64,000 bases of DNA from Strigops habroptila (taxonomy: Eukaryota; Chordata; Aves; Psittaciformes; Psittacidae), in assembly GCF_004027225.2 (NCBI RefSeq), contig NC_044289.2, positions 7,243,761 to 7,307,760 on the forward strand, written 5' to 3'. Shown piece by piece: positions 15,008 to 39,483 of this stretch (the stretch's first letter is position 1; the number at the start of each line of letters is the position of its first letter). The notes beneath the pieces are model-generated. The model was not told the origin of the DNA. It did no database searches and saw only the letters and a list, made by a program, of their open reading frames with translations. A program made the translations under genes and the position numbers.

Positions 15008-15112
15008 TTAAGCCAAGAAAAAATACTCAAAATTATGAACATGGTGACAAATAAAGAAGCGAGCATTGAAGGAACTCTGCATTTGGCACAGAAAGAGGTG
15101 TGTGCTGAAAAG
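15008..15112 (+). pseudogene. Formin locus, first recognised exon (start of PH-like segment)
   Basis: This is a 105-base block of 35 codons, phase 0 at both ends, with a strong acceptor (a T run then CCCCAG) and a good donor (AAG|GTAAGG). It reads LSQEKILKIMN and then EASIEGTLHLAQK; the last part looks like the first strand of a PH-like fold. It joins in frame to the block at 16,378. Assignment to the formin gene rests on phase, order and strand rather than on clear homology. An upstream exon must exist unless an internal ATG is the start. Confidence 0.5.
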
Positions 15113-15805
15113 GTAAGGCCACTCCTTTGATCTATTTTCCAAGACATTCAAATGCATGTGCATATTCTGGAAAGCCTGAGTGAGCAATAGGAGTATGTCT
15201 GTATTGATTTCAAAGGTGTATTCCCAACTTGGTTTTTGGAATGAAAAGATTATTTGTTAAGACATAAAGCTGATGGAAAAATGGAGAAAGCTCTACGAGG
15301 TATGGAAGTTATGAGTCTGAGAATCTGAAGTAGTTTAATTCCAGTTCTCTAAGTTACCAGCAACCATCAAAAGTCAGAGATAATAATAATGGTTCTGCTT
15401 TGGATATTTCCTGCTATAAGCAGAATGGAGGGAAGGACCATGGTGGTAGCGTTTGTTTGGCACGGTCTGCACTACAGGAATGAAAGTGCCAAAATCTTTC
15501 ATGACCAAAGGTAAATATCTAACTCAGGCAAGATCTGAGACTGAGTTTGTCTTCCCTGTTGACTGTGTTCACTGAAGTTGGGCAGTCAGATAATATTCTC
15601 ATCTTATTATGCCAACAAAGCTGTTTCTGCTCAGCAGGGACTGACACATAGAACACATACTGGAATCTGACTATATCAGTTTTTAACACTGCAAATATAG
15701 ATTGTGTAATGGAAGAGTAATAACCTTACTTTGAAGCAAAAAATTTTTAATTGCTGTAGTTGTGAGACAGCATATTCATTGGCCATTATCATTGCTCCCT
15801 TCATC

Positions 15806-15840
15806 TATATGTATACATATATATTTATATATACATACAG
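15806..15840. repeat. AT-rich simple repeat in intron
   Basis: An alternating TATATG/TATACA tract, partly self-complementary, in the intron between the first two recognised formin exons. Confidence 0.7.
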
Positions 15841-16377
15841 GCAAAAAATCTGTGATAGCTAAGATCTAAACTGAAACACAATAATATTTAGATCAGAAAG
15901 TAATCTGTCAACAATATCCTCTTTTCTTCACACAGAAGTGGCTGTTATAGAAATAGCCACCTTCACTTCATATCAATATTGGGGCATAGGTTGAATCTCT
16001 GCTGAGATGGTCATGCCATTAATTTGTGCTACCTCCACCTCTGAATGGGAAGTTTTTGCACTGGGTTGTGTAAGACAAGGAGGATTCAAAATGGAATAAT
16101 ATTTCAGAGTGATAAATTGACGCATATTCATCAACAGAGATAGGGAAACACAGTTACAACGAATATGTTTGTTTTGAAACTAAACCAAACATAATACAGT
16201 ATCTTGATGATGTAATGTCATTTTTTAAAAATTCTGTTCATGGGCAAGATAGATAGATACATATTCTAAGCTGGTCCTTTATCTAAATGTCCTTGCATGG
16301 GAATACTGGGGATGCTTTGTTTCCCTTGCAGTGAAGAGCAGTGATGGAGTCAAATAATGAAGAACTTTCTGTTCCAG

Positions 16378-16551
16378 ACCGATTTCAACACAAGGACCAT
16401 TTTTAACATTGAAAAAGGAATTATTAAGAAACAGTTCCCTTTCTCACAAGTCAAAGCCTGTGAAGATACTGAAAGGAGGCATTTCAGCATTGTGTTTCAT
16501 GGGCGACAAGATTATGAGCTGGAAGCAGTGTCTCTTGATGATAAAAGGAAG
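16378..16551 (+). pseudogene. Formin locus, PH-like segment exon
   Basis: This block has 58 codons, phase 0 at both ends. The acceptor follows TTCTGTTCCAG and the donor is AAG|GTAAGT. It reads TRTIFNIEKGIIKKQFPF, then HFSIVFHGRQDYELEA and SLDDKRK. Alternating beta-like strands followed by a helix-like end resemble the core of a PH-type fold. Reading frame and both splice sites are intact. An alternative is that the exon starts at 16,332 as a 5' exon using the ATG at 16,357, since the frame is closed by a TGA at 16,342. Confidence 0.6.
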
Positions 16552-17970
16552 GTAAGTTTTTACAGTGTCACGGACAGATTGCTATAAATAACAATATGGT
16601 AGTACCCAGCAGGTCCCGATTGTAAGCGGGAATTACACAATTGCTACGCATTGTGCAAGCAAAGAATTAGGTATGTCTTTATTCTATGTACATAGAACAG
16701 AGAGAATGTGAGTTCAGGATAAAGTTTGGCCTTAGTATTTTGCAACAGTTCACTAGGGTTGAAGATGTAAAGCCAGCTCAGGACATAATATGTAAGTGGA
16801 TGCACTTCTTCAACTACACCCTGAATGTAACTGGTCTGAGTTTGTATTAAAACAAGCAGATAAGATTGACAATGTGCACAGTTGAATCTTCACTGAAATT
16901 TTCCAAGCGCTTTTTATTCTATATATAAGATACTAATTAAAATGCATGGTTTTAAAGAGAATGAACTAGATATTTTTTGAATTAAATTATTCAGCATTGT
17001 AAGATTTTGTATGAGCTGTTTCATTTTGAGGTTTGAGCTCTTTTTGAGTTCTAGGTTCAATTAAATATTCCAAGCAGTTATTTGTAATTAAGCTTTACAC
17101 TGAAACTTGAGAAACTGGAGTCATGACATTAGCACTAGCTCTTCACCTGAATGCAAATATCCTGTGTGTTCAGGGGTGATTGAGTCTTGGAGCTTGTGTT
17201 ATCCCACTGCTGAAGTGCTGAAGCCAGCTGCACAATTTATGTTGAGGTACAAACTCTCAAAAAGCATGGAAAAGTTTGCACCCGAACTTCTGCTGTGACC
17301 CGTTTTTAAGGTGCTTTTTGCAGAGGGATTCATTCCTCGTGAAACTTAATGCTTCACATGCAGAAACTTTTATTCTAGATAAACTGTACATCATGGTTGA
17401 TTAGCTTAATTTTTAAAGTAGACTACACTTAGCAGAAAAGCTCAAAAAAGAACATGTATTCAGTAGTAAAAACACTCAAATATGGCCCTGTATAACAAAT
17501 AGAATGCTTCAAATTCACACCCACCTTAATGCATTCTATTTTCAACTAGGCAAGCCTTCATTTTCCTGCTGTTTGAGAATTCAAGCTAAATCAATCAAGT
17601 ACTATTTGAACTTGAAGTGAGCTGAACAAAACCGTTGTCCTAGATTGCTTTGTATATGAATTAAAAAAGTAAAGCTATGTTTACAGTAACCCCTCCAGAA
17701 TAAAATTATATTCTCCTTATTCTGACAGATTTAGCACTGTGGGCATAAAAAGAAATTGCAGTTAAGTAGTTTATCATCATAGAAAGACCCTATTTATTTT
17801 ACATTAATTTATTTTACCTATTTGGCTGCTGCTCATATTGTTGTCTGTGATTTTTATACTTGAAAAATCGACCTATTAATGTCTTATTCAAAGGAATTAA
17901 CATGGAAAATATACTCTTTCTGCTGCCACTTATTATGTAGACAACATACCTTTTGAGCAGAGTTATACAG

Positions 17971-18089
17971 AGCAATTTGTGCAAGAGACCAGAACAGTCA
18001 TGCTTTGGAAGACCTGCAGAATATGAAGTGATACATGAAGGACTGCTGGATTTGCAGCAAAACACTTTTACATGCACTGCATGTGTGAA
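17971..18089 (+). pseudogene. Formin locus, exon opening the PH domain
   Basis: This block has 119 bases, entering in phase 0 and leaving two bases of a codon. The acceptor ends ATACAG and the donor is GAA|GTATGA. It encodes EYEVIHEGLLDLQQ, which looks like the first strand of a PH domain, and ends ACV plus two bases that with the next exon give K-YLVQLYEGELALY. That join recreates the usual KxLVQL-type second strand, which supports the boundary. The position where PH domains often carry Trp before this strand is Cys here. Confidence 0.6.
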
Positions 18090-20103
18090 GTATGAACTGC
18101 ACTTTTGTAGACTTTTGGGCTGTAGATTTTGTTAAAATTTCTGATAAATAAGATTTTAATTTGCTGATAATAAGTTAATTATTGAATGTCTTTTTAAAGT
18201 TAAAATGTAGATGTCAAAACTGCATGAGATCAAACCACTGAAATTAACTGTTAGTGCAATAGTGGTACCAAACAAAATGAAGCTCTGGTGTGTGCTAGAG
18301 ACTGCTATGTGCTTAACTAACACAAATACATAACATTGATAGTGCTCAGAGTAATTTTAGTGGTGAGTCTTTATGTTTACCTCTTGACTTTTTACTCCAT
18401 TTTCAATCATAAGGAAAAGGAGAAAAAGACTGTCAAAGCAGAGACATACAGGAGTCCTGCTAGAGAACATTGACTTGGACTAGCCAAAATGGCTGCCCAA
18501 AAATTCATAATTCATTCTTGTAATGTTCTGAACTTCCCTCCTGTGGTGCTGACCAACCATGGTGGCCTAATGGGGTGGTGGTTTTAGAGACCAGATGGTC
18601 CAGGAAATGAACCATCATCCTACAGACAACCCACCCTTCCCCTGAGCCAGCTCCTAAAATACCTGGAAATCTTTATACAATCAGAAAGAAAGAGACAGAG
18701 AAAAAAAATCTGTCTAGGAAAAGCTAATGAAAAAAAGGTAACACTAATTATCTGCACAGGGCAATTACCTCAAAGACTTCAGAGGAAATGATTTAAATTG
18801 TTTTTAAAAGGCTACCACTGTATGTCTTGTAAACACCATCCCTGAATGTGCCCAAGATTTGTTACCTTGCAACATTTAACAAGTTTCTTAACAAACAAAA
18901 ATTGATTTTTATTTATCTGGTGAAGCAAAGCCTTTGTTGCTCACTGCTTGATATTAATCCTCTTTTTTTTTTTTTTGGCAAAGTAAATGATGGTGGAAAC
19001 ATCTGGAGATCCGATTAAACTATAAGTTCTTGCTTTAAAGAAAGGAAGGATCAATATAACTGCCAGCTCCATTAAACAATTCTTATCACTTGGACTGTTT
19101 ATGTGGGAATAGCTGCAATTTGTATTTTATGTTTAATTCTTCTGGAGCAGCTAACCTTATTTAAATTCCTCATAGAACACCTTAATCAACTAGCCACACC
19201 TTGAAGAGACAGTGGAAGAAAAGAAAGGTCTGATAGAACTGTCAGAATGATAAAGAAATGCAGTAACCCTCAAGAAAAATGAAAATGTAAATGCTTAAAT
19301 AAGAATAAAAAGTACCTACAGTAAAGCCCTGCTTGTTATAAGCAGCAGAGCAGAATCCTAGAGGAGAGACTGAAGCAGAAGATTGTGCTGTAAATAGAAT
19401 CTGTGTATGGTCAGGCAATTTCTGCAAAGATTAATTTATCATTTAAATAGATAATACCCAAAATTTGGCACAGTCAGTTCTGATGGAAGCCCTTGAGAGC
19501 AGAATACCTTGACCCTTTCCTGCCAAGTGACTCCTGGGAATGAGGAGGGACCAGGATCAGACCTTATGGAGTAAAAGCATACACGGAGGCATTTCTAAGA
19601 GGGAGAGTTACTGGACTATAAGATTGAGCACTAAGTTATATCATGGTGACTTGTTTATAGCTTGGTGTCAGTGGAACCTGCAAGACCCACAAATTCTGAA
19701 GCCTTGCCATATTGTGCACTGCTCAGTCACACAGAGAATTCCTTTAAAAGTTCACAGTCCAAAAGACCCGCTATGCTCAAAACTGGAAAGGAATACATGG
19801 AGTGGGACTGGCAGAGAGTGGCTAACAAATTAACAGAACTTGAGCAATTTTACTTGATAGTTAGATCTTAGTTTTAGCTCTCTCATTAGACATGGCAGGC
19901 TGGAAGTTCATATGTTGTATTACAGTTTGCTTATGTGTCAGATGAGAATAAAAAGCCTTTATCCTAAAGGTTTTATGCTTTGAGAACATTTTGCCTGTTC
20001 CATGGAAGATGCTATAAAAATGTGGAATCTTACTGACATTAGAAAATGCTTTAACAAAGTAGTCAGTGAAGAATGAACTATACCTCCATTCCTTGTCCTA
20101 CAG

Positions 20104-20280
20104 GTACTTGGTACAACTATATGAAGGAGAATTGGCTTTATATTGCATAGGTCTGGGAAGAAAGAACAACACTGCAGACCCTGTAAAAACTACAATTAAT
20201 TTGACAGGTGGTAATGTGAGTGTCAGCAAGGAAAACGGATGCAGTACCTTTTCAATTCAGACCAAAGGACACAATTATTA
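20104..20280 (+). pseudogene. Formin locus, PH domain core exon; splice join forms a stop
   Basis: The acceptor follows TCCTACAG and the donor is TATTA|GTAAGT. It encodes YLVQLYEGELALYCIGLG, a charged loop (RKNNTADP), TTINLTGGNVSVS and STFSIQTKGHNY, which are typical PH beta strands. The exon ends with the two bases TA of a split codon. The next exon begins with G, so canonical splicing makes TAG at exactly the join. In an intact gene this codon would be expected to be TAC or TAT (Tyr). Confidence 0.75.
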
Positions 20281-20896
20281 GTAAGTATAGTTGGTAATTT
20301 CTAATTTGTTCAAGCAGAAGTACTGAAAACGAGGTCAAGCAATGGAGAATCTCCATGCCTCAGAACAAAATACAACAATGGAGAAACAAGGCCATCAGAA
20401 TTATATAGATTACCCCTCCCACTGTTCTGCAGTGATTTGGTGAGTGTTTTAAAGAAGAATTAAAAGTACCACATTGTGGAATTGAGAAGAGACATTGAAA
20501 TACTGCCAACAAAAGCTTGTCTAGTTGTCATGTCAGGAGGCAGTGAAGAAATATGTCATTTAGCTTGACAGGACAGCTGTGTGAACAGGTTCTGACGAGC
20601 TTGTGCAACAAGCACTGTAAGACAGAGCACATTGTTCACCTTCTCCCAAGGTGGAGAAGAGGAATTATGAGGTAACTACACCACAAAGTCAATATATGGC
20701 AAAACTTCAGCTCTCTAACCTTAGACATGTAAGCAATTAACTCTCTCTGAAAAGGTCAGAGTCAGCAGCACTGGGTCCTTTTAACAAGTAAAGCTGCTGA
20801 ACATCATTCTGATTAAATAAGAAATATCTGTGGCTGTATTAGTCAGCATGTTATTTACACTTCCTTGTGTTTATATATGACGTTCCTAAATTTCAG

Positions 20897-21104
20897 GTTT
20901 CATACACCCTTTACTGTCCAAAATAACAGGATGGAGGATGTTAGCAAGCTCCAGAACGAGTGGGTGTCTCTCATAAAAAGGTACTGCCAGCTGTGCAAGG
21001 GTGCCTCACTGCCTCAGGAGGGGTCTCAAAGATGCACCCTCTCTGAAGCTGATTACGAGGAATCTCTGACTTCAAATGCTTTTCAAATTCTGTGGTCTAT
21101 GCAG
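20897..21104 (+). pseudogene. Formin locus, exon with PH domain C-terminal helix
   Basis: The acceptor is AATTTCAG and the donor ATGCAG|GTGAAA. After the split codon it reads FHTPFTVQNNRMEDVSKLQ and then NEWVSLIKRYCQLC. The Trp in the last helix is the hallmark residue of PH domains. The tail, rich in Ser, Glu and Asp, is probably the linker toward FH1/FH2. It is open throughout. No proline-rich FH1 block was seen between here and 23,140. Confidence 0.75.
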
Positions 21105-21401
21105 GTGAAACAGCTTGGTAGCTAGAACTTTGAGAACTGTGCTCAGTGTCTCTCCTGTATTGAACACACAAGAACATTTGTGTAGGTGTAGATGGGTTGG
21201 CATAAGAAGCCTTTGAGGCAGCTACAAGCCATGTTGCAGAAACACTCTTGGTCTTTCTCTGGCTTAGACTGTGAATGGCTGTCTTGAACGATCACGAGCA
21301 GGATTTTTCCCTCTCATATCCCAGGTATGATTCTGCTGAAGGCCTGACCTAGAGCAGTCTTTCACAGCTAATGAAGCAGTTCAGCACATAGCTCTGGTCT
21401 T

Positions 21402-21440
21402 ACTAATGAAAGGATATATTACTAATAAAAGGATATATAA
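21402..21440. repeat. short imperfect tandem duplication
   Basis: Two copies of a unit of about 19 bases reading ACTAATGAAAGGATATAT and ACTAATAAAAGGATATAT, side by side in the intron between PH and FH2 exons. Confidence 0.6.
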
Positions 21441-23139
21441 GGTCTTTCAATTACTTTGATGAGAAGTGGTAAATATTAAAGGAGCAAGAGTAATTGTTCT
21501 TCAAAGACTACTGCGATTTCTGTTACAGAGATGCCTTTCCAAAAAAGTTCTATATCCTAGTGATGTTTGAAGAAATGTTACATGTGTAAAGAATTTGGGG
21601 CAGTTAATTTTGAAGTTTTAATGATTTCATCTTTATGAATATTGATAAGAATATATTTTGGAGATTGTGTAAAGTTTTAATTGGGAACTGTAAATGGAGA
21701 TACTTGTTGGAATTATTGCATCCATTGACTAACAATTTGAAGGGTTAAAAGGGAGTGATACGAAAGTGCTGTTGCAGATAAAAAGAATCCTGTAATAGCA
21801 CTTTATCTACTAAATTATTGCAGTTTCTTTGAGGAAATTTCTTTCTTTGGGTTTGCAAATAGCACTATTCTTCCTTTTGATCCTATTCCTCTTACAACTT
21901 TTTTCATTGAGACATTCTACATCTGTTTCTTAATCTTATCCTTGAAGTCCTGTCAGTGAGATTTTTGGCATATACTTATTATAATCGACATTACTTAGAT
22001 CAAAAGTTAATTTGATCATGAGAATTCTGATTAATCTTCCTGCAAGTGCTGCAAACCACAGTTCTTAAATTAACGACTAAAAAGATGAAGCTCCCAAATG
22101 CCAGTAGGTTAAAATTTCTTGACAATCTGAGTGGCTTTCTGAACACAAGAGAAAAATGAGAGTTCTGAGAGAAGATCTACACACTAAATTCAAGCCCAAT
22201 GTATGAGAAAATGCAAATAAAAGTTATCTGGTGGGTTCTTCTAGACAAAATAAGTTCTGCCATACAGAGAATAGGTATCAGAAAGAGAGATACAAGAAAA
22301 ACATCCTTAGATTTCCAATGAAAAGGTTTGGGGAGACACTATAATGTATATCTTACTCCAAGAACATGGGATCCAGTTGGTGAAAGTCTGATTTATGAGT
22401 CAAAATACCAGCTTCTGTGGCTTGATTGGGGTCTGTTTCTATGTGTGAGACCCAGTTTCCCTCATATATAACCCTTATTTTGCTTAGAAAAATACTTTGG
22501 CAAAGTGTGGTGACTAGAATTTATTCAGCAGCTGGTTTCAACCACCGAAAACATTCAAGAAATTATTAAATTCTTTATAGACAGGTTGTGAAAATTTTAA
22601 AATCAACATTTTACTATGAGTTATTCATTCTGTTATGGTCTGTAGACATTAATACTCCTGAAGAGATACATGGTTAAAACGCATAGGGAAGCAAAAGCTA
22701 CAAGGCATAAAAGGCATAAGATGGAAAAAGGGAAGATTCTGCCAGGCTTAGCACTAACTCTAGATCTTATAATAAAATTAAAAGTGTGGAAAGTGTGTCA
22801 GAGGAAGAATAAATGGTTTATATTTCATTGGTCAACAGTCTTCTGAGAGCCAGTAATAGCTGAATTGAGCCACAGCAAGTTCCTATAACCTGAAAAGCTA
22901 TTGTTTTTTAGAATTGGAGGAAAAAAAAAAAGGTGCATCATAAACACCCTTCCTGAGTTCTCCTTCCCAATCCCCTTTTGCTGCTCAAGGAGTTCTGTCG
23001 TAGCAAAGACTACAGGAAAAGTTTCATGCCAACACTGAGAAGCATTTAAACCTTTTTTACATTCTCTGCTATTGCCTTTTGTTCGCTTCCTTGTGCTTCC
23101 TGTCTTACCTTTATCCTTTGGTGATGATGATGGAGACAG

Positions 23140-23318
23140 GCAGCAACTAAAGAATAACCAGTGTGACAAAGTGGTCTTTTGGGGAGCAACAGCCTTACAA
23201 ATGATTCTTCACCTGTTTGAGGAACAATATTATTTCCATTTTCCTACCATAATGTGTATTATGAGCCAGCCTCATGTCAGCGCAGAAGTCTTAAACATTA
23301 CAAAAACACTTTATTGAA
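23140..23318 (+). pseudogene. Formin locus, degenerate N-terminal FH2 exon
   Basis: The frame encodes KVVFWGATALQMILHLFEEQ, resembling the FH2 pattern of an FW followed by a leucine helix and LF, and ends SAEVLNITKTLY, matching the conserved VLDxKKTLN type element that directly precedes the FLKSF helix of the next exon. The alignment to FH2 needs one more residue before the next exon; that codon is TGA (23,315-23,317), and the base pair where the donor GT should follow (23,319-23,320) is TT. The left boundary is uncertain: AG at 23,138-23,139 or 23,160-23,161. Confidence 0.5.
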
Positions 23319-23823
23319 TTTTAGAATGTCAGGCAATGTGTAATGAGTGAGCACTTCTCTTTCCCAGGCAGCCCTACTCATTCTAGGAGTAATTTTTCTT
23401 GCATAGACACTACCTACCTTCTTTTGAATCCTAGAAATTAAACAAACTAAGTAAACAAAATTAAAATAATTTGAAAAATTAATTTCTTTAACCTTCAAAA
23501 TAATATAATATGCCAATACATTGTGTTGTTGTTTGGAAAAGAAATATTTTGACTGTTGAGCTGAGTACAAGACAAATATATAGGAGTAAGTACTTGAGTA
23601 TCTTCTGATAATAGTGTCTTGATAGTTCTGTCTTAAGCATTGGTGGACAAAAATATATTTTTGCTTGACTACTACTATGTATATTTAAAGAAAATGCAAA
23701 GACTGAGTTCTTGCCTTAGCTTTTCTTTTCCTTAAATCTGGAAAGTAAATAGGAAATGTTTGGGTGATTTTTCCTTTCCTTAAGCATTTTCTTTCAAGTA
23801 ATCTAAAAATCTTTTTCCTCCAG

Positions 23824-23931
23824 ACGTTTTTCTTAAAAGTTTCCATATAAAACCAAGTGAGCTGAAAGAAAAACTATACATTATACATGAAGAGGTGGAC
23901 TTACAGATGAGCAGATTACAGCACTAGGAAG
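23824..23931 (+). pseudogene. Formin locus, FH2 exon with a one-base frameshift
   Basis: The acceptor is CTCCAG and the donor GAAG|GTAATC. The first part reads VFLKSFHIKPSELKEKLYII then HEE in one frame. The second part reads GLTDEQITALG plus two bases in another frame, and these join in phase to R-YMPTPKD of the next exon. Both pieces are standard FH2 sequence, so one base is missing between about 23,894 and 23,897. Read straight through, the first frame hits TAG at 23,925. The exon is 108 bases long where phase linkage requires 109. Confidence 0.85.
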
Positions 23932-26329
23932 GTAATCTTTGGGGTTCAATTGTTTGTTTATAATACAGACTAACATTTGGAGAAGGCATAATCTTCTGCA
24001 AATAATGTGAAGTTCAGGAAAGATGCTACTGAGATATTGGGTATGTCCTGACTGTGAATAGAGTATTAGGGTTGCACACAGAAATCTTAGTCTTTGCAAC
24101 TGAGATTTTAGAGTATGCCTCCAAAATATCACTTTTCCCCATGTTGTGTAGGAAAGGAGATTGCAAGAAATGACAGCAAATCTGACATGATTTTGTGAAC
24201 TACTTGCAAGGAGAAGAGTTAGTAAAAAAATAAGTTGAGGTAGTGAGCAGGTGTAACTTGATGAGGAAACTACAATATCTCTTACTACAGTCTTACCATC
24301 TATTATGGGATCAGAAGTGTAAGACTTAAAATTGGTCTGGAGAGGAGGAAGGCAGAGAAGTGTTAAAGGAGCATCCGTAAATGGGATGAAGAGATATTAA
24401 GAATATTGGTATTTCTGAGTGGCAGAGATTTGTGGGTTTAAAGCAGCATGCAAATTTCCGTATCATTAAAAAACTGAATTATTACATTGAGACAAATAGA
24501 TTTCTGGAGTGTAAGCAAACTACTGGTATGTGAAATTTATAAGAAGTGGATTGTACCTCTTTGACTAGTTTAAGATGTGGAAAAAAAGGAAAGAAGTAGG
24601 ATCCTAGAGTAGTATCTGTAATACGTCCCAGTCCCCATGTAATACTTAGGCCATTTATTAAACACATTCATATGAAAACTTGATGTGAAACTGTTTCTTG
24701 CTTCAAAATGAGGAAAAAAAACTTTTGCCAAAGTGAGCTTGGAAAAAGATGACACTGGCAAAGAAAGTGAGGAAGTAAATAACTGACATTTCTACTATGA
24801 ATGAGTTTAATTTTGGCCTTAAAATCCTTATCCTAATCAATGTATCAATAGTCATTTTAAAGTCTGCAGAATCATGTCTGTACTTTAGAAAGTGATCTGA
24901 ACAGGAATCAATGTGCTATGGTGTGGTTTGTACACAGCTTGACTGAATTACAAAGGGACATGGACAAGACACTGAATATTTCAATGTATATATGTTTTGA
25001 AGGAAAACACTGACCGCAATCTGCTGTTCAAGCCCTAATACAGCACTGCAGATTCAGTCCAGGACCAACATGGTGCTGAAATTGGTAACACCACTGAGAT
25101 CACTCATTTACAGCATCTGGGCTCTTTGCCATCAGACAATTGTAATAACCATAATGGCAATGAAACTTGAAAAGTTATATTTTTTCCTTGAAGATTTCAG
25201 AGTCTTCTCTTGATAGCAATAATGCTGAGGAAATGTTTCTAGCAATGGAATGTGTAAGAGATATTGGATGCTGTATTACTCTATGCTATATAGGATCAAG
25301 GATTCTTATTTATTGCCAAAATCTAGGAATGTATGTACAAATCTTGCAGTGAAAGGAAGCTAATTTTTCCACCCAATAGTTTTAGAAGCGTTACTGAAAT
25401 AGATGAGATGCATTTCAGAGTTAAGGGTTGGATTTCCAAGGCAGTTCAGTGTCTTTTGTCTCCCATTCAGTCATCTCATCAAAGGAGCAGATGCTTATCG
25501 TGAAACATCAGCACTTAGAAGTTTCTCCTGCACAATTCACTGTAGTGGATGTGGCATGACACAAGCAGCTGGACATTTAGTGTTTTTGAAGATATTTCCA
25601 CTTGATTTAGTGGAAATATCATGGTGGAAAATTTTACCATTAAAAACTGTATCCTCCAGTTATTGAGAACCTGTGGTTATGACAGGAGTTTAAGCAGGAT
25701 AGTCGGTGGCTGGAAAATTCCTCTCTGTGCAAATTATACCTGTCACATTGTCTAAGCCTGAGCAGGAAGTCTAAATTCTACTATTGCTGAATGAAAAATA
25801 TTTAAAGCCAAACCCAAGATTGCATTTTAAAGCCTCTGACCAATGTGCAAAATGTCCTGCTCATGTATCCAGTGAATGTTAGTGGAGGTGGTGGAAAATC
25901 AGTAGAAACTTCAGGACTTATTTTGATACAGAAACATTTCCATAGTTCTCTGAATAATTCTTTATCCTGATGTCTTAAAATCAACAGAAAGGACTCTTTT
26001 TTTCCTATAAACTTAATTTTTCAGAACAGTGGGAGATTTTTTCATTGCACAAATTCCGAGTTGCATTCATGTAAAGATATATTTATGGAATGCCTTCACA
26101 TATTCCTGTGATTCCTTTTCCATGGTTTCCATTGTTTAATGCTTTAAGCTTTAAAGCTAGATAATCTACTAGTTTCATTTTGTGTACACAATACATTAAA
26201 AGAGGTTGATGTGATATCAGACTTCTGATTAAATGAAGATGTTTGCTGTCAGCTTTAAAAAAATTGTTCTTTGAATTTGCTTAAAAAGTCAAACTATTTT
26301 TAATGATAAACAAAAACCTCTTTCATTTG

Positions 26330-26640
26330 CCAACAGTTAACTGTTATTTTTAAATGAAAATTCACTTTTGTTTCCTGATGTTGAAGGGTGATGAATGGAA
26401 TATTTTATAATCTGCTTTAATATAATAATTCAAAACCGAGCAATAATTCAATTGAAATGTCATGTTAAATTATTGACAACAGTAAAAAACCCACCTTATT
26501 GTTTGTCCTGTATTTAACATGCTAAAATCCTTGTGTGATTTTTTCCATCTTTGAATAAATTTCTTAACTTTTAACAAAAATGCAAATATATCTCCATGAA
26601 TATTTAATCACACTTGCTACACATTTAGTGGGTTGCTTGC
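26330..26640. promoter_or_regulatory. candidate conserved noncoding element in intron
   Basis: A stretch of very AT-rich but non-repetitive sequence with dense homeodomain-type cores (CAATAATTCAATTG, TTAAATTATTGACA) and TTGTTTGTCCTG, inside the intron between two FH2 exons. Its texture is like that of vertebrate developmental enhancers. This is pattern recognition only; no conservation data are available here. Confidence 0.2.
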
Positions 26641-27380
26641 AGAAAAGATAGTAGACCTGAACACTTATTTAAGATTCTTAACACTCCTTATATGTTAGTT
26701 ATAACATTGATTTCATTTTTCTTAAGATATGCTATGAATTCCCATAGTGTATCAGTCAGGCAGGAAGATCTCCAAACAAGGAGAACTGTGGTGGTGTGTT
26801 TATTTTTCCAAGTGGAGGCATGTTTACAGATGCTAGTTTTTAAGCATCTGTTGCTCTGGAGTACTGTGGGAGAATATTCTGTTACCTTATGCAGAAGGAA
26901 GAAAGTTGTGTTACATGCTATCATAACAAAAACAAGAAATGGATCTTGGATGTGATGCAGCTCTTAGAGAGACAGAAATGCCATTGCCCAATCTTGTTTC
27001 ATGGGTAATTGAAAAAGTTTTAGAGGTAGGAGTCAGTCAGACATTGGGGCCTGTTGGTTAATCACACCACAGCATGAGTCTGCTCTGGTTTTCTACTAAT
27101 TTTTCAGAGACGTTATTGCTGGAGACAAGCTGAGCCAGCATGGCCACAACCACTCAAAAAGTGTGTGTTGTTCCTAGGTGCTTTGGAAATGTTGTCAGGT
27201 ACGTTTCTCAGAGCAATGAAAACAAGGCTGTATATATCAAGCTCAAAATTGATGAACCTCTCTGGAAATTATGGCCTTAACTCCTCTGTTGCATGATTTA
27301 CCTTTTCCAAGCCCATGCTTGGATCTACAGTAAATTGACTGTAGATCAGCAGGTGAACAGTACTGACTTATTTACAAGCC

Positions 27381-27398
27381 TTATATATATATATATAA
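27381..27398. repeat. (TA)n microsatellite
   Basis: A pure TA alternation of about 18 bases in an intron of the formin locus, upstream of the exon at 27,618. Confidence 0.8.
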
Positions 27399-27617
27399 GC
27401 ATTTCCAGATATGCAGATGTATCTGCAGATCATTTTTGCTTTATATTATGTAGCTGGTTCAAATGTCTATAAAGTTCCAATGGTTAAAGAATAAATATAC
27501 AATATGTAAACCACATCAAACAGTAAGGAATTCTGATGGAGTGGAATGGTAGTTTTATGCTACAGCAATATAGAATGAAGAGGAAGCAGACATCTGATTT
27601 TCATTTGCTCTTTACAG

Positions 27618-27708
27618 ATATATGCCAACACCAAAAGATGCAGAAAGGTACCAGTCATTCAAGAGGTCTTCTTCAGAGCTGCATGTGGTGGATCAGTTTA
27701 TGTTAGAG
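27618..27708 (+). pseudogene. Formin locus, FH2 exon (YMPTPKDAERYQSF)
   Basis: The acceptor is TTTACAG and the donor TTAGAG|GTAAGA. After completing a split Arg codon it encodes YMPTPKDAERYQSFKRSS then ELHVVDQFMLE, a very typical FH2 segment (the helix region equivalent to ELxxAEQFLLEL in other formins). Frame and splice sites are intact; it leaves in phase 0. Confidence 0.88.
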
Positions 27709-28233
27709 GTAAGAAGGTGTGCCGTTTCTAGAACACTCTCCTAGATAAAACCACTACAAGAAGCTGCTGTTTTTAACTTAAATATACAATCACAGCTAGA
27801 ATAGGTAGAAAAGGATTTATCTGATAAAGAATTGGGACAGGCAGATATTATGAAGAGAACTGTATGGATCCCTTTGTGTCTCCAAGTCACATGCCTTCCC
27901 TCTCCTGATTTATTCTGAGCTAGATTTCCAAAACCTGTAAGTATAAAATTGTATGCATTTAACCATTCTTACTCACAAGAAATGAGTGTCACTGATTTTA
28001 ATAATGTCTGGCCTTACAAGTGTACAGTGTCTTCTTAAATTTGCATTTGCAAAATGCATATTCAGGTATGTGCCATAGTATATCTACAGACTTAAGGCTT
28101 AGAATAAAATTACTAAATGAGCACAGAAATTAGGAAAACTATGGTGCAGCTAAATTACTCAAATTATGAAAGATATGTGCTTGTTTTGGTATAAACACAA
28201 GTTTTGATTCCTTTTCTGTTCAACTCTATACAG

Positions 28234-28320
28234 CTGTGAAAAATCCCCCACTTAGGCCAGAGGTTGGATCTCCTGCTTAGCATACGTGAGCTCCCTGTAA
28301 GCATGAGAGATTTGGAGCTT
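28234..28320 (+). pseudogene. Formin locus, FH2 exon with in-frame TGA
   Basis: The acceptor is CTATACAG and the donor GAGCTT|GTAAGT; 29 codons, phase 0 at both ends. It encodes KIPHLGQRLDLLLSIREL and PVSMRDLEL, the FH2 stretch normally reading MxxIPxxxxRLxxLxF. The second codon is TGA (28,237-28,239), where FH2 domains have a sense codon. No other frame gives FH2 sequence and the previous exon feeds this frame, so the stop is real in this sequence. Confidence 0.85.
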
Positions 28321-30117
28321 GTAAGTAACATGGCTTATAGTGTGTTCACAGAGTGTTTGTAATCAAAATCAACCAGCTAGACGGTAGAGGGCCAAGTGGC
28401 CTCAATGCACATTTCAAGCTTGTGTAGTTTGGAAGGTTGTGGGGTTCCACCCCCACCCCCTTTTTTTGCTTATAGCAAAACATCTCATGGTTCATAATGG
28501 GAGCAATTCATAGTGTAATAATCCAGACACCCTAGTGTATTAAAAAAACCATTTCATGGCTCTGTTCAAAATTAACAAGCAAAAAGGTTAAAAAACTTAA
28601 TAAAATCTCTATAGGTCATGGCTTTGATAGCCAAGGAATTGTAAATGACATGAAACTATTAGAGACAGACTACATTTGAAATGCAGTGGCACTATCAGCT
28701 GGTACACTTCGAATGCTTTTGAGAATTCAATTAATTTAATTGTATTTTCTAACGATGGTATTCTACAGTATTGGTTCAAAACAAAACAGTATATACATGT
28801 ATCTGCATTTAATATCATCCTTATTCCAGTAAGGTTCAAGAAGCAGCTGCTAATGGATCTGGCAGAGGAATAGACTTCCACAAGGAAGAGAGACAAGAAC
28901 AGGAAAGGATTTTCAAATTTTTATTTGGTGCTGTTAAACTTTCCTCTTTCTTTGGGCACTGATCAGACAGAAGAGAATTTCACCATTAAAATTCAATTCC
29001 TTTTGTCTGGAGGTTCTTGCCCCACAAACTGAAAGAATCAGTCTAAAGTCATAGATACCTATAGCAAGTTTATTTGACCAGCATCTCATAAACATTTACT
29101 ATGTTCAGAAGACTGCGGGAGGATTACAGCCCCGAATTGAAATGTTGCAAACCAGAGTTCAAGTCTCTTGCCTCATTTAAGGTTGATTTAGGGTTAGGGG
29201 CATGTAAATAAACAGTGTTCCAGTCTCATGGACCAGATCTTCCTGTTCCTAACCGCTGCCTTACCTGCCAGGGTTTGTATAGACTTTGATTCAAAACAAA
29301 GTATTTCAACATGATTCTGTTTCTCTGAAAATGTTTCAAAGGTTTTGCTCTCACTCTGCATCGGAGTGAAAACAAAATTTGAAAGTTCTGCAAGTGTGTT
29401 ACCCTTTGTCTGGCTCGATTAAAACCGTAGTAACAGTGAACAAAGCTCAGAAGGGGAACAAATGTAAAACACTGAGGAGATGCACAGATTTCTGACTCTG
29501 CCTGATACAGTGCTACGCCTTTGCTATCCTCCACTGAAACTAAATTTTGAATATTTGGAAGCTATTACATATACTGTTTGCTTTGATGGATATTTAATGT
29601 TCACTGAAGAGCCGATTAGTTGTCTAAGTATTTTCTTACTTGTCCATGCTAGCACATGTTGTTAAACCATAGATTATACACCTGAAATTCTATGGGACAA
29701 GCTGGATATTGACTTTCAGCACCTCTGGCCCTGTGATGTGCCAAAATTGTTTTACCAATGGCTTTCAGCTCTCCCGTGCATTTCACCCTTTCCCTGTTTT
29801 TACATTTGTGTGTTGGTGACTCATGAAGAGAGGTGTGGTGCTATAAAAACATACATTTCCTAATTTAAAACAAAGCCTCTTCTTGTGTCTGTAGCCCTGG
29901 AAGGGAGGGAAACAGAAATTGATACTGACTTTGATTACAGGAAATGATGATTCTTCCTTGTGGGGAAACTGCTAAGAATTTTGATAAGAACAGTCTTCAG
30001 CTGGTATAAGCAGAAGGGAGGGAGGTGAAGGATGGAGAACCTTATACTGTGCTTGAGGCTATCTGCTTCCCCTGATACATGACATTAGATGAAATCTGGT
30101 GCATTCAAACAACAAAA

Positions 30118-30120
<3 letters not shown>

Positions 30121-30432: not shown

Positions 30433-30615
30433 TCTGAACTGGAGGAAGATTTCTGTGATTCAGCTATAAACCAGAAAATCCAAGTGAGTAAGCAGCTGCT
30501 ATCCAGCCAGAAATTTGTTGCTGTCTTGGAGTACATTTTAGCCTTTAGGAACCATTTAAATGAAAAGGCTGGAAAAGAGAAGACAAAAGGACTTCGATTG
30601 CCATCTTTGACCAAA
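30433..30615 (+). pseudogene. Formin locus, FH2 exon with mutated acceptor
   Basis: This block has 61 codons ending at AAA|GTGAGT. It encodes SELEEDFCDSAINQKIQ, then QLLSSQKFVAVLEYILAF, RNHLNEKAGKEKTKG and LRLPSLTK, equivalent to the FH2 core ending GNYLN...GFKLxxLxKL. The block must start in phase 0, and the only suitable place is after TTTTCAA, where the acceptor AG has become AA (30,431-30,432). The nearly invariant Gly of the GNYLN motif is Arg here. Both changes fit loss of constraint. Confidence 0.85.
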
Positions 30616-31767: not shown

Positions 31768-32138
31768 GGGCCATAATACCACATCTATCATAATGAAAAA
31801 TGCCTATGAAATCTTTTTCTGCCACAGAGCATCTTCCCAGATTCAATTAAGAAACTTTGCTATCTTTGTGAACACAGCACACTGCTTTTAACCGGAAAGG
31901 AATAATGGCTGTGTGTGGAGGTTCAAAATCAGTTGTAATCAATTAGGATACCTCAAGTTAAAAAAGACCCATGTGAATAAGAATACACAAAAGAACAAGG
32001 AAGGTCAATGGATATGAGAGTGTAAAGCTGATCTGAATCAAGAACATGTGAAATGGCAGATTGAAAAGAGGTTTAATTTCATTGTGTTTTCTATTCTTGT
32101 CAACTTTACCTGGGAGCTATCAACATCCCGCTGTTCCT

Positions 32139-32172
32139 TTTTTTTTTTCCTTTTTTTTTTTTAATTTTTTTA
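32139..32172. repeat. T-rich homopolymer tract
   Basis: Runs of T broken by CC and AA, 50-80 bases upstream of the FH2 exon at 32,219. It may partly serve as an extended pyrimidine tract for that acceptor. Confidence 0.6.
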
Positions 32173-32218
32173 AATGTCATAGCTCAGTCTGTCAATTATT
32201 ACTCTATTCTATTTGCAG

Positions 32219-32357
32219 TTACCTCTGTTGCGGGGTAAAGAGAAGACATTCACCTTGCTTCACGCCCTTGTGGAACAGATCTTCTTACCTTGTGGAACAA
32301 AATCTGATCTTGCCAGATTTTCTGAGGAGTTGACAGAATTTGAAGCTGTTCCCGATG
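32219..32357 (+). pseudogene. Formin locus, FH2 exon (KTFTLLHALVEQI)
   Basis: The acceptor is ATTTGCAG and the donor GATG|GTAAGA; phase 0 in, one base out. It encodes LPLLRGKEKTFTLLHALVEQ and then SDLARFSEELTEFEAVP, the FH2 region usually reading KTTLLHFLxE...F..EL..V. The frame is open and both splice sites are canonical. Confidence 0.88.
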
Positions 32358-32488
32358 GTAAGAGGAGGGAGGGGAAAAAAATAATCAACAAACAAAAAAT
32401 TAAGTCCTCCAACTTCTGTGGAAACTTCCATTCTCACAATACGAATGATGCTTATTATCATGTTTTTCCCCTCTCTCTTCCTTTCCAG

Positions 32489-32521
32489 CTTCCATGAAGG
32501 GCCTCAGTGCTGAAGTTGATG
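32489..32521 (+). pseudogene. Formin locus, 33-base FH2 mini-exon
   Basis: A very short exon between a long pyrimidine tract ending TTCCAG and the donor GATG|GTATGT. With the incoming G it reads ASMKGLSAEVD and passes one base on. The phase fits both neighbours exactly (1 in, 1 out). It encodes the FH2 helix just after the ELxxV element. Confidence 0.8.
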
Positions 32522-34251
32522 GTATGTAAATGTGGTTTCTAAATTCAGAGAAAGATTTTCATATGGTGTGCAGTCATTTGGAACAGGTTTCCATTGCACT
32601 TCTGTAGTTTGTAAAGAGAGGTAAAGGTTCAAAACATTGAGGTAAACTGTTGCTATGGTGATACTTAACCTGCCATGTTACTGTGAAGAATTTAGAAAAA
32701 AAGAAGAAATATTAAAGTGTGTCCAGGTGGTTTAGAAATATAAAAAAATAGACTGCCCATGGTAAATAGAGTTTATCATAAACTGCAAATGTTAAGTGAT
32801 AGAAGTGCTCCATCAAAGTTATGGCTGTAGCAGGGTCTCTGGGAGCAGGCGATGCAGCAGGAGAAAACTTCCTACAGTTCAGTCCTGAAGTTCAAGAGCT
32901 TCTTTGAACAAAACTGGTCGTCTTCTCTAGAAAAGAGTCCAACACCAATCAACAGGAGGGAACAAAATAAGGTTATTCAAATATAAGACAGATTTTGGGA
33001 GACATTTACAACTTCTCATTGAACACTATCATAATATGGCCAGTGAATTCAATGGATTTTAGATTGAAGCTTTTGATAGAGAAGGTGTATGAGTGGATGA
33101 AAGCGACTTGTATTATGTTGAAAGTTTATAAAAATCTATCTTTTGAAAATGTGGCATGGGTGTTGACTGTAACTACAGACCAACAGATATTATTTTAGCC
33201 TTTGATAACATATCTGAATGATAGTCGCTCTCAGCTTTCAGTTTGAAAAACCCTTGTACCTATTCTGCTGGGCTCTGGGAGTCAGCCAGGCATGTAGCCT
33301 GAGGCTACTGAAGTGTTTTTGTTCTGCTCCAAGAAATTCCAATCAACTTTTTAGGAGATATAATTAACTAAAAAGAGCACTGTTTTCCTTTGGTAACTTG
33401 TGTTCTTTGGGGACAATGTTGGTAGCAATTCAAAATTACTAAATATTTTAAAGGCAGTTTTGGAAAGTCATAGGTAAAGCAGTACAATGGACATGATACC
33501 AGAAACAGTTGGGTGCTGTCAGAGGAGGTAAATATTGGGTACTGGATGAGGTTGGCTGGCTTCTTCCCTCCATGGATTCCACATGGGTCCAGCCTAGTCG
33601 CTTGTATCTTCTGAGTTCCATCTACCAGGGCAGAGAAGGAAAGAGACGGACCAAATGCCACTGAATCAACCTTTCTCACCATGTAGTTCAAAGCACATCC
33701 TGGAGCTCATCTCCTGCAAATATTGCACAAGCACAAGGGGAGGAAGATGCTAGAATGCAGCCTGGGTCAGTTCAGGCCCAAGTCCCTGGAGCCAATGCCA
33801 TATCCTCTTCTCCCCCCATTTTGCACAGCAAGAGGTCTCACAGTAGCAGACAGGATTTCTTATTGTTACACACAGTAGAATTTTTGTTCTTTTATCTTTA
33901 AAGGAACCCTGAACTTTTTACACAAAATGTAGGTTTGAAGAATGTTATTTTCATTGATAAGCCCAATGCTTAAAGCTAGGAAAGGTCAGATTTATGGCTG
34001 CTGCATAACCATACTGTTGATCTCTTCATTATTCAGCAGTTGCTGTGATATGATCACATACTATTTTTTTTTCATAAGACCCATGCCTCCTTCAGGATTT
34101 CTATTTCCACACAGAAAATTATATTCCTAGATGAATGTATTGTAGACACATAATCTCCAAAATTTTCCATGTGCCCTAAATTAGACATTTGCAACCCTTT
34201 GGACACAGCTGCACGCTAGTGAGATTTCTCATTTTCTTTTTCTTTTGTTAG

Positions 34252-34355
34252 TTTTAAAGAAAGAATTGGAAAACGTTATTCAGTGCAGGCGGCTTATTAA
34301 ACCCAAGACAATCAAGGTGACATCCCAGGAGTCACAGTTCTGTAAGGATCTAAAG
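34252..34355 (+). pseudogene. Formin locus, FH2 exon (VLKKELENVIQ)
   Basis: The acceptor is TTTTGTTAG and the donor CTAAAG|GTAACA; one base in, phase 0 out. It encodes VLKKELENVIQCRRLIKPK and TSQESQFCKDLK, a charged helical stretch in the FH2 post domain. Open frame, intact splice sites. A minus-strand CR1 fragment lies about 400 bases downstream in the next intron. Confidence 0.85.
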
Positions 34356-34692
34356 GTAACATTATCACAGCCTTATTGTGGGCTGGAGGGAAAGGATGAG
34401 TAATCTGCTTAGTTTGTGCTGAGATCTGCCCTGACAAGGGAGTCAAGCATTTGAGGGAAAGTGGCCTTTTACTCCCCTCTGATAATGTCTCATACTGCAG
34501 CGTGGGAAGGGCCTTTCAGAGTTTCTGCATCTCCTGCTTTTGCTTCACAGTCAAATGGGCTGGAGTGGATGAGGAATGGGTAACCCCAAGGTTGCTTATG
34601 ATACGCACTTTGCAATAACAGTAATTTTAGATCATATATGAATTTTTAATAATTTCCTCTGCTCTCAGAAAGCAAAATAGCACAAAGTCATA

Positions 34693-34747
34693 TTTATTCT
34701 GTTTATATGTATATATATGTTTATATGTTTATTCTGTTTATATGTTT
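34693..34747. repeat. tandem TTTATTCTGTTTATATG-type repeat
   Basis: The stretch TTATTCTGTTTATATG is seen twice, separated by ATGTATA simple sequence, abutting the CR1 fragment that begins near 34,750. Confidence 0.6.
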
Positions 34748-34749
34748 CC

Positions 34750-34990
34750 AATCATTTAGATTGGAAAAGACCTTTAAGGTCACCGAATTCAACCATTAAC
34801 CCAGCACTGCCAAGGCCATCACTAAACCATGTCCCCAAGTGGCACATCATATACACATCTTTTCAATACCTCCACGGGTGAGTACTCCACCACTTCCCTG
34901 GGCAGCCTGTTCCAGTGCTTGACGACCGTTTTAAGTGAAGAAATGTTTCCTAATATCCAATCTAAACTTCCCCTCGTGAAACTTGTTACT
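34750..34990 (-). mobile_element. CR1 LINE 3'-end fragment, minus orientation
   Basis: On the + strand it reads TTGGAAAAGACCTTTAAGG, then CCCAGCACTGCCAAGGCCA and CTTCCCTGGGCAGCCTGTTC, the antisense of the well-known CR1 3' region of birds and reptiles. It is 5'-truncated as usual for CR1 and lies in an intron of the formin pseudogene. It identifies the host as a sauropsid, most likely a bird. Confidence 0.85.
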
Positions 34991-35676
34991 TGGAAAGAGA
35001 GACCATCCAAGAAACATCATGCTAGGGCATGCCTAAATTGTGAATACAGGTTGATCTAAGATGATTCTACCCATGCTAGTGGGTAAAAAGATGGGGTGGA
35101 AACACAACGGAGAGTTTGCTGAGCAAGTGTAGTGAGCCCAGCTCTGGCCAGGGTCAGCAAAGCCAAACACAGGGTTTATTAGCTCAGGTACAGAGAAGTT
35201 AATTAACTCTCAAAAGCACTGTTGCCCTACTTATGAACAGGACTACTTTCAGTGAAGGTGTTCCCCTTCAAAACAAAAGAATTTTTATTTCAAAAGTTAA
35301 GTTTCTGTTTCTGCCTCAAGAACTAGCAACTGGGAGTGTTTGCTTCATTTATGCAAAAAGGCTAGTCTATGCCAAATGTGGGTGGAAATTAGGACCTTAT
35401 GATGCTTATCTAGTTCTGCCAATTTTAATAGATTTAGGTAATGTCATTGGATGAGACAGTAAAAAATTCTCTAACATTAATGTTTCTTTTTTTTGTCTTT
35501 TATGTCTTAATACTTGCAAGGAAATGTGTGTGCTGGATGTATGCTTATCTTTTGTGAAATGTGAAATTTTTGTGACATGAAAATTTTGACTTGAATTATC
35601 TTGTTTTCACTGCTATTTAATTCCTGCTTTAATATTATGCTCCTATATGAAATTAAGAAGGTTTATTTTATTACAG

Positions 35677-35760
35677 GATTTAATTCAGAAATATGAAAGG
35701 GATCTATCCCAGCTGTCAAAGAGATGTGATGAAATGAAGAAGCTTTACAGCAACGTATTA
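35677..35760 (+). pseudogene. Formin locus, FH2 exon with doubtful donor
   Basis: The acceptor is TTATTACAG, phase 0. It encodes DLIQKYERDLSQLSKRCDE and MKKLYSNVL, the coiled FH2 helix before the FGE element. Alignment with the diaphanous-type spacing LYxxLxxxF wants the exon to run through VL to 35,760, but the next bases are AA instead of GT. A GT at 35,755 would drop two residues and could be used instead. If neither is used, the frame runs on into the intron until 36,042. Confidence 0.78.
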
Positions 35761-36104
35761 AAATGCAATGAAAATAAATCTACATTTCTTTATTTAAAAA
35801 AGAAAAAAAAGGCAGGAAGAAAGAAGTGCCAGAAGTTTCCCTACTTTCACATGCTTTGTAGTTACACTGTCCACAGAAATGGAAAAATAACTAATCATAT
35901 CCAACAGTGGTGGAATGTTCTGAATGAAAATCTGGCTTTTAATTTTCTTGAGGTCTTAACAGCCCATTTTTTTAGAGGGTCTGTGGCTGAAGTATTAAAA
36001 AGAAAAGTAGATGTTCAGCAACTTTATAAATTCAGAGTTTAACTGTTGAATGTTTTCAACATGTTACAGAAAACATGTTATGGGAAGCGACATGTTCTGG
36101 TTCC

Positions 36105-36240
36105 TCCCAGCAATCAAAGGCCAGGTTGGATAGAGCCTTGGGTGACATGGTCTAGTGTGAGGCATCCCTGCCCATTGCAGGGGGTTGGAACTAGGTGATG
36201 TTAAGGTCCTTTCCAACCCAAACCATTCTATGATTCTATG
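36105..36240 (+). mobile_element. CR1 LINE 3'-end fragment, plus orientation
   Basis: It contains GGGGTTGGAACTAGGTGATG, then AAGGTCCTTTCCAACCCAAA, and ends in ATTCTATGATTCTATG, the diagnostic octamer tail of CR1. 5'-truncated, between the last two formin exons. Confidence 0.9.
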
Positions 36241-39200
36241 TCTTTGGCTGGTGGGCAGTTGCAAATCTATTACTTTGGCTGAGAGTTTTTTTCTAGTGAC
36301 AAGCTTACAAGTCCAGGGCATTGATTTAGCAACTGTTATTTGAGTGAGAGGGAGACTGAGATAGAGATGTTAGTAGTAGCACAGATCTAAAAATGAGCAG
36401 AGCAGAAAGGAAGCTCCACAGGCAGAAGAATTCTGATAACGAAACTTTCTGTTCTTGTTTGTTCCTATTATATTCACCCACACTTTTACCGGAGAAGCAT
36501 CTAATTTTCTCAATCACTTTTTCCTCTGAACAGAAGCAACCCATCTAGGTCCAATACACTAGAAAATGTTTTTAGGGTCAGAGGGTCACACTAGAAGGAA
36601 TGATAAAAGCTCCATGCTGCAATTTTTAACAACATAGCATGTAGATTCCTCGTTTAGTACAATGTTCTTGGAGTGTGATCGAAATTCAAGAGGTGTCTGC
36701 TATGGTAATGGTATTCTCTGGCAGAATAGTCACACTAGGAGGTTTTAAGGAAAGGGGCAGATTTGCTGAAATGCAATGCTAATCTCTAAAAGTGGAATAA
36801 TTTCCTGGTCCTGGGATTAGGACCTTTTTTATAAGGGGAAGGGATTAGAAGATGAAAAGTTTTATGGTAGGCAAATGTTACACAGAAGATGCAGCCAGGA
36901 GAAACTTTGGGGACTTATCTGAATAGACACTGAAGATGAGTGAGGTTTTTGACCAAGGAAATTTAATTAGTAGCGAGTTTTACTAAAAATAATATTGTAA
37001 TTATGTGCAAGGGTTTCTTTGTGTCTCTTGCAGTCCTTCAGAAATGGGAAAAATGCCTCAGTGTAGCAAGCCAAAGTTGTATGTACCACCTAGAAGAATA
37101 ACTCTGTCCCAAGCCTTCAAAAAAGGTTGAAGAACTGGGATAAAGCAAGAAGAAGAAAAAGGTGGGAAAAGTAGTGTAAATGAGAGTATGAACAATTGAG
37201 TTACATGAGTGGAAATGGTTGAAAAGTATTCACTAAATTTAAAAATGGGAAGATTTGTGCTGTAAAAGCTTTGAGGGCCACTTCTTGCACAGGGAACAGA
37301 AGAATCTGAGCCAATTTACCTAAAAGTCATCTTCAGAAGGAGTTGTGTTGTGTGGCCAGTCCTGTTTGCAGACCCATGTCACTCCCATGGAGAATGTGCC
37401 CTCCTGTGTGTGTGTGCTCTGTCTTATTCCTCCTGCACAGACATGGTTTTTCTCCAGCTGTGTACGCTCAGCCAGAAGGTATTACACATGTGATGCTGTG
37501 CTACAGATGTATGTGCGAGGCTCTTTGCTTTCCTTTCTTGTACTGGAAACTCATTTGAGGCTCTTATTTGCATCTGAAGAGGATTTCATTTTCCATGTAG
37601 CTGGAAGTTTCCTCAAGTTTTAACCCATCTGCTTTTTGCCCTCCCTCCCTCGTTGTTCTCCAAAGTTAGGCATTTGATATATTTCTCTCCTTTAGAATGG
37701 ATGTTTTTTCCTTCCGAATAATGTTATTGCTAGGCAGATCTTTTTGCATATTTATAAAGCAGCAAAAATGCAAAGCAAATATAAAATAGGACGAGTTATC
37801 AAAGACCAGGCTATCCTCTCAACAGCAGTAGGAAGGAATAGTCCAGCTTAGCTGGGGGAATACCTGATGTGGAAATATGTTGTAGGTAGCCATAGACATC
37901 ATGTTGCACATAAACCAAAAGCTCTACCTACCTTTATGATTTTATATTCTGCTTATAAAATCAATAATGACCTTGGCATGTGACACTTCTATGGAATGAA
38001 CAATAAATTGGGGATAACTGCCTGTGGTATAGCTGTGGGCTATCAACTTTTCGCAGATGGTCATTAGCTCCAGGAAATGCCTCTCTCATTGCTCTTTAAC
38101 TGATGGAACACCATGGGTGAGTGGCAAGGCATGCCAACGATCAACGGCTTGGAGCACCCAGGGGGTGCAATTAGGAACACAACAGGCAAAACTATTAATC
38201 AAGTGTCACTGGTTAATGTTGAAGTTTTTGTGACTGGATTATATGAGAGTGGTTTCTTTTACCGTGTTTCTGATTTCCCGGCAGAGGGTTTGCTCCTAAG
38301 AACATGTTAGATGATGTCCAGGTGAACATGTTTAAGTAATGGCAGATACTTGTCCAAACCTTTTTGTATATTTCAGTTGGAACCTGAAATACAATATCAT
38401 TGCTGCTCAGCCCTGGGAGAGCTGCATCCTCCAATTACAGAGTAGCTCTCAATTACAGCAAAGATAAGAACTTGCAGCAACACAAGATCCATTTTTAAAC
38501 TTTTTGATGAAACCTTTGGAGCATGTTCACTAGATTTGTTCTGCTCAATTAGGAAGCTGTTGCAGGCAGTTATGTTCTTTAACGCATTGATCCCATTAAC
38601 GGGGAATCTCTGAAAATGATGACAAACCTCTTGAATTAAGCCTTAGCAACAGATGTAATATCAAAAATCTTTTCCTATCCTAGAACTGGAGAGTGTATGT
38701 GGAAGTGATTTTAGTTAATGCAGGAATCATTCTCCTAATACTCAGCGCTGTAGTATGACTGCCTTTCACCTCATTTTATAGCAGAGTAGACATGATGCCA
38801 ACATCATTCACAGCTTTTTTAAAAACTTTCCATCTGTTCCCCTTTTTCAGGTGAAGGAAAGAAGAGAACAGGGAAAGCTGGCTCTTCGATACATTACTTT
38901 TTCTATCCAAAATGTCTGCTTCCCTATGAATACTTTTGTTTGTAAAGCAAAAAGACAGAAAAGGAAAGGTTTTTGGCTTTAACATGCCGTGACCATGCTC
39001 ACTGTGGAACATAAACAATTCCCTAACATACGCATTTCCTCGTATGAATGGCTTCATCTAACAAACTGTAGAGCCAGTTTCCTGATTTTTCTCCTTTTCA
39101 GCTGGAGATCTATAGTCCAGGCAGAGAGATGGTGTTATACAGAACTCCAGGTTATTGAGGTATTCAGTGACAACTCCTGGGGCCACTTTTACTTAGGATG

Positions 39201-39378
39201 CTTCGGATCTCAGATTGCTGGAGCCTTTAGCCAGCTCTAAGTTTTCTAATTATTAATATCAACAATAATGAAAGTATTTAACTTTTCTCTTGCTCTTTTA
39301 TTTTCTTTAAGATCTAGGACATGGTTTAGATTACTTGGGTATACTAATGTGAAGTATTATTCTCTTTCAAACTTACAG

Positions 39379-39483
39379 GTAAAATTTGGGGAGCCGCAAG
39401 ACCTGGACTCTCAGGAACTGTTTGGATGGATATCTTCATTCATTAGTGAGTTTAGGAAGGCCTCTGCTGAAGTTATGCCATAA
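39379..39483 (+). pseudogene. Formin locus, last recognised exon, FH2 end and stop
   Basis: The acceptor is ACTTACAG. It encodes VKFGEPQDLDSQELFGWIS then SFISEFRKASAEVMP and ends with TAA at 39,481. The FGE, LFGW and FxxEFxKA elements mark the C-terminal end of FH2. Whether TAA is the ancestral end or another lesion is unknown: no DAD-like basic tail is visible after it. AATAAA signals at 40,074 and 40,197 could have ended the transcript. Confidence 0.82.

Follow-up and report, generated by a model that had tools for sequence, protein, structure and literature searches.

A probable unitary pseudogene of the PH-domain formin PHCF in the kakapo lineage

The window analysed here is a stretch of 64,000 nucleotides from the genome of the kakapo, Strigops habroptila (C13:7243761-7307760). 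On its + strand it carries the remains of a single-copy PH-domain formin gene (PHCF), located between MC3R and a downstream neighbour which we take to be CBLN4. We read these remains as a unitary pseudogene, inactivated in the kakapo lineage after its split from the other parrots examined, and put the probability of this reading at roughly 0.94. The gene has kept its introns and its ancestral place, no other copy was found in the genome, and disabling lesions are accompanied by weakened protein-level constraint. Fifteen of about 18 coding exons are retained across 3493-39483. An earlier note on this DNA had described several separate disabling changes; we read eight separate damaging lesions directly from the DNA, two of which are exon losses.

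Results

Identity and exon structure

Fourteen exon-like blocks in 15008-39483, colinear and on the + strand, match the 746-residue PHCF of another parrot, Pezoporus flaviventris (P0002). The earlier note had counted at least fifteen in this range; the blocks stand but the count does not, and exon 1 (3493-3528) lies outside the range, 11.5 kb upstream of position 15008 at which the note began. When P0002 was used in a protein search of the whole genome (1.149 Gb, 89 contigs), 13 matches were obtained at an expect value (E) of 0.001 or below (9.2e-31 to 7.7e-4), every one at the window locus; no second PHCF copy was found at this threshold. The fourteenth block, the 11-codon exon 15, was recovered by tblastn. 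The match to exon 1 scores 53 (49 with the Pezoporus letters) against shuffle maxima of 27 and 34 (10 shuffles each). Exon coordinates were obtained by mapping P0002 back onto the window (exons 2, 4-7 and 10-18, plus exon 1), with the boundaries of exons 12-14 set by exon-skipping isoforms of other parrots (P0001, P0010). The final exon encodes a conserved C-terminus, followed by TAA at 39481-39483.

3493..3528, + strand: exon 1 (IDNTRKQDTFSQ); ATC where most orthologs have their start codon, closely preceded by two in-frame TGA; donor GT retained
15008..15112, + strand: exon 2; open frame, phases 0/0
15113..16377, + strand: interval expected to hold exon 3 (29 codons; PH1 strands 1-2); remnant not found
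16378..16551, + strand: exon 4, PH1 segment; open frame
17941..18089, + strand: exon 5; open frame, 7/38 conserved positions changed
20104..20280, + strand: exon 6, PH2; final two bases TA
20897..21061, + strand: exon 7; first base G, cut off after codons YE, remainder and donor absent
21062..23823, + strand: interval where the last part of exon 7 would fall, then exons 8-9 (about 140 codons) with FH1 and the beginning of FH2; genome-unique DNA, remnant not found
23824..23931, + strand: exon 10, FH2; 4 bp short after 23894, frameshift
27618..27708, + strand: exon 11, FH2; open frame
28234..28320, + strand: exon 12, FH2; TGA at 28237-28239, at a Cys codon conserved in orthologs
30464..30615, + strand: exon 13, FH2 core; 152 bp against 153, frameshift at start, immediate TAA
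32219..32357, + strand: exon 14, FH2; 9-bp in-frame insertion inside 32288-32305
32489..32521, + strand: exon 15, FH2; open frame
34252..34355, + strand: exon 16, FH2; open frame
35677..35760, + strand: exon 17, FH2; donor GT lost, AA at 35761
39379..39483, + strand: exon 18, FH2 C-terminus; open, stop TAA

The domain order was examined in P0002. In its predicted structure, residues 59-159 and 167-282 match PH folds and residues 433-746 match the FH2 fold; the mean predicted local distance difference test score is 68.5, the predicted template modelling score is 0.42, and residues 284-389 are unreliable. Pfam detects FH2 in P0002 at 228.7 bits and does not detect PH. A proline-rich FH1 ahead of FH2 is seen in the parrot orthologs. 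Pruyne 2016 (PMC5047451, section 12) places PHCF formins at the MC3R-CBLN4 position. Since the tandem PH folds with FH2 in P0002 and this position both fit Pruyne's PHCF, the window gene belongs, as judged from sequence and a structural model, to that subtype, which is what had been proposed from its PH segments followed by FH2.

Lesions and missing parts

Besides the lesions listed above, a TAG stop spans the exon 6/7 junction, formed by the TA that ends exon 6 and the G that opens exon 7. At the exon 17 junction two bird models that read into the intron (P0024, P0028) have five extra residues, and the window is 15 bp shorter. The exon layout had been thought intact; it is not, as exons 3, 8 and 9 and the last part of exon 7 are absent and the exon 17 donor is lost. 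Elsewhere the splice sites are well kept: acceptors are AG in 14/14 cases and donors GT in 12 of the 13 tested, the exon 7 donor, which went with the end of its exon, standing outside this count.

Frameshift-tolerant scans of 3001-24000 on both strands, for exon 3 and for residues 361-447, gave nothing above four shuffles each, and a + strand scan of 21001-23900 recovered no remnant of residues 301-378. In a whole-genome search with a 100-residue query made up of FH1 and the beginning of FH2, the best match (E 0.11) adjoined another formin. A repeated mobile element was considered as the cause of the large deletion and rejected; 21056-23823 matches only itself genome-wide. The tandem repeats of the window offer no explanation, and Rfam has no match in the window at gathering scores or in 21000-24000 at E of 0.1 or below. 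Two complete reading frames over 15001-29999 gave no Pfam match, because the exons are too short for such a scan. Of four window exons scanned singly, FH2 was found only in the exon 13 remainder (27.4 bits, under the 34.8 cut-off), and the single match for exon 4 was weak and unrelated.

No formin can be made from what is left: the first two strands of PH1 are gone, PH2 breaks off short of its final helix, and both FH1 and the FH2 lasso are missing.

We note that upstream of exon 1 window positions 3380-3492 read ATGAATAAACTATAG. The N-terminal extension of two passerine models (P0041, P0057) resembles an open form of this segment.

Orthologs in other animals

A search with the exon blocks matched 194 proteins at E of 0.01 or below among 6486 candidates; the listing covered 120 of the 194. 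Among these, parrots come first, then other birds, turtles, crocodilians and lizards; coelacanth, lungfish, other fish, sharks, amphibians and two marsupials are also present. No placental mammal is among the 120 (two rows of which are unnamed). The protein set consists of 90%-cluster representatives, and kea and cockatoo names, or a kakapo model, could hide within clusters.

P0002 has all 18 exons. Four further parrot isoform models have 17 of 18, P0001 being without exon 12 and P0010, P0012 and P0013 without exon 13. When bird proteins were scored exon by exon at a 45% threshold, 13/58 matched all 18 exons. In a tree the window copy groups with five parrot rows (support 0.999); its path length is 0.081, and those of the five are 0.027-0.049. 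Because P0002 is complete, four other parrots are nearly so and other birds are complete, the loss of PHCF in the kakapo is separate from the placental loss; the earlier suggestion of an independent loss thus holds.

All three Passeridae models among the matches examined (P0060, P0065 and P0072, from Passer, Pyrgilauda and Onychostruthus) are without exons 7-9; most of their other exons are well kept, and FH1 and the FH2 lasso are gone. This may mark a second case of erosion among birds, or else assembly may have failed over GC-rich sequence. Exons of the exon 7-9 stretch are also missing from P0017, P0018 and P0033. One further model, P0029 (Antrostomus carolinensis), has eight otherwise invariant positions changed, is without exons 5-6 and carries a foreign insert; these oddities may reflect decay or a bad model.

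Protein-level constraint

Constraint was gauged on amino-acid changes in the retained codons, using 37 of the 120 listed rows, hand-chosen and mostly near full length. The window copy is 90% identical to P0002 (503/557); P0013 is 95% identical to P0002 (480/506). With an outgroup of 18 birds at 80% agreement, unique changes in the window copy and in each of five parrots number 31/7, 30/12, 26/8, 28/14 and 28/15 (chi-squared 15.2, 7.7, 9.5, 4.7 and 3.9), the five comparisons sharing columns and not being independent. At 180 positions invariant across 23 birds and 9 reptiles the window copy differs at 12, one of which is the start codon and two of which, adjoining the 9-bp insertion, are alignment-dependent. 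When the 23 birds were tested singly in this way, 0-8 positions were changed, the 8 being those of P0029. An estimate of age from the 30-31 unique changes in about 440 conserved codons was set aside, as it requires an assumed neutral rate.

Neighbouring genes and a mitochondrial copy elsewhere

Both neighbours are open and clean. The MC3R open reading frame lies upstream of the window gene at C13:7230474-7231475; the downstream neighbour is listed here.

56676..61647, + strand: CBLN4, intact neighbour serving as quality control; three open exons (from 56676, 58502 and about 61450), ends ...GFLVFPL

Elsewhere in the genome, C25 around 23971525-23971686 holds mitochondrial sequence copied into the nucleus, in which ND2 is open when read with the mitochondrial code. 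This ND2 is 93% identical to that of Strigops habroptila and next, at 88%, to that of Nestor notabilis.

Discussion

The ancestral gene would have encoded a protein with two PH domains in tandem at its N-terminus, followed by FH1 and finally FH2. Its product, to judge from the PH and FH2 domains, was presumably a membrane-directed assembler of actin filaments. The gene would have been inactivated in place once the kakapo line had split from the other parrots examined, and its start, several of its exons, one splice donor and the reading frame would have gone later. What we observe are the lesions, the excess of changes and the failure to find another copy; the order of the lesions, the age and the absence of expression are what we infer. 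The loss had been called recent; eight separate damaging lesions and the excess of amino-acid changes over other parrots point instead to an older inactivation, one that is not very recent. Nor is it likely to be very old, since splice sites are kept and identity to P0002 is 90%.

Several observations weigh against a pseudogene of the kakapo lineage. Decay is incomplete, as that identity and 26/27 of the splice dinucleotides tested are still kept. The excess of unique changes is only 2-fold with respect to the conure and macaw rows (P0012, P0013), and a control, P0029, alters 8 invariant positions, though it is a doubtful model. The orthologs are themselves predicted models, and 45/58 bird rows miss at least one exon through divergence, isoform or gap.

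The same pseudogene could instead record an older loss common to kakapo and kea, that is, to the whole Strigops-Nestor line. The kakapo-kea split is given as 60 to 80 million years in the excerpt of PMC11386469, and a shared loss would therefore be as old. The retained identity and splice dinucleotides are much for so old an event, and the quoted age is high; we consider a shared loss unlikely, while still giving it some weight.

Considerably less probable is a working shortened gene, with a new start in exon 2 and a PH-only protein ending at the exon 6/7 TAG. The frames of exons 2, 4, 5 and 6 are open, and as the length of exon 3 is a multiple of three, exon 2 is in phase with exon 4; few conserved positions are changed in exon 6 (0/29) and exon 4 (1/54). 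Such a protein would, however, have a PH1 without strands 1-2 and a PH2 without its last helix (residues 263-282 of the predicted model), and the N-terminal half is overall more changed than the C-terminal half (18/192 against 12/250 conserved positions).

An intact gene disguised by assembly or sequencing errors is the least credible explanation: assembly is known to introduce single-base indels and to drop GC-rich exons, which fits it, but the lesions vary in kind, with two stops at codons that otherwise align, an altered start codon and the loss of a donor among them, the window is without any N, MC3R and CBLN4 are clean, and amino-acid changes are spread over 13 of the 16 exon pieces counted.

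The pseudogene can be set beside three comparisons. The human PHCF locus, according to section 12 of PMC5047451, retains six blocks, which correspond to parts of six of the seventeen opossum exons; that paper describes the same gene in the same MC3R-CBLN4 place, dead by stops and frameshifts. The kakapo differs in retaining 15 of about 18 exons and in having relatives that keep the gene. The PHCF of other parrots, which carries NCBI names such as formin-H-like and delphilin-like, shares the splice sites of the window copy at the exon 12-14 junctions, as placed by the exon-skipping isoforms; P0002 is 90% identical to the window copy over the 557 retained residues and has its full set of exons, whereas the window copy is without start and FH1 and its frames are broken. 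Finally, CNR2 is likewise pseudogenised in parrots, but according to the excerpt of PMC9727682 that loss is common to all parrots, which the PHCF loss is not.

The PHCF family, its place and its placental loss are already known; the loss in the kakapo would be new. We found no report of a kakapo formin, or of PHCF loss in birds, in the open-licence PMC literature, and no functional study of PHCF in the excerpts of the literature examined. More tentatively, and in our view doubtfully, PHCF may have been lost repeatedly in birds, with the FH1/FH2-lasso part going early (in the kakapo by deletion, and in the three sparrow models). Counting against this, single models of other birds also miss exons here, and assembly gaps may explain the sparrows. 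Were it true, warm-blooded vertebrates would have dispensed with this formin repeatedly, the loss in placentals being one case among several.

A lineage-specific dead gene is of an ordinary kind, and the interest of this one lies in its being a second independent loss of a little-studied formin, with far more of PHCF legible in the kakapo than in human. Many kakapo have been sequenced, which makes the loss easy to confirm and date. Features common to the kakapo (or to kakapo plus kea) and placentals could reveal the role of PHCF.

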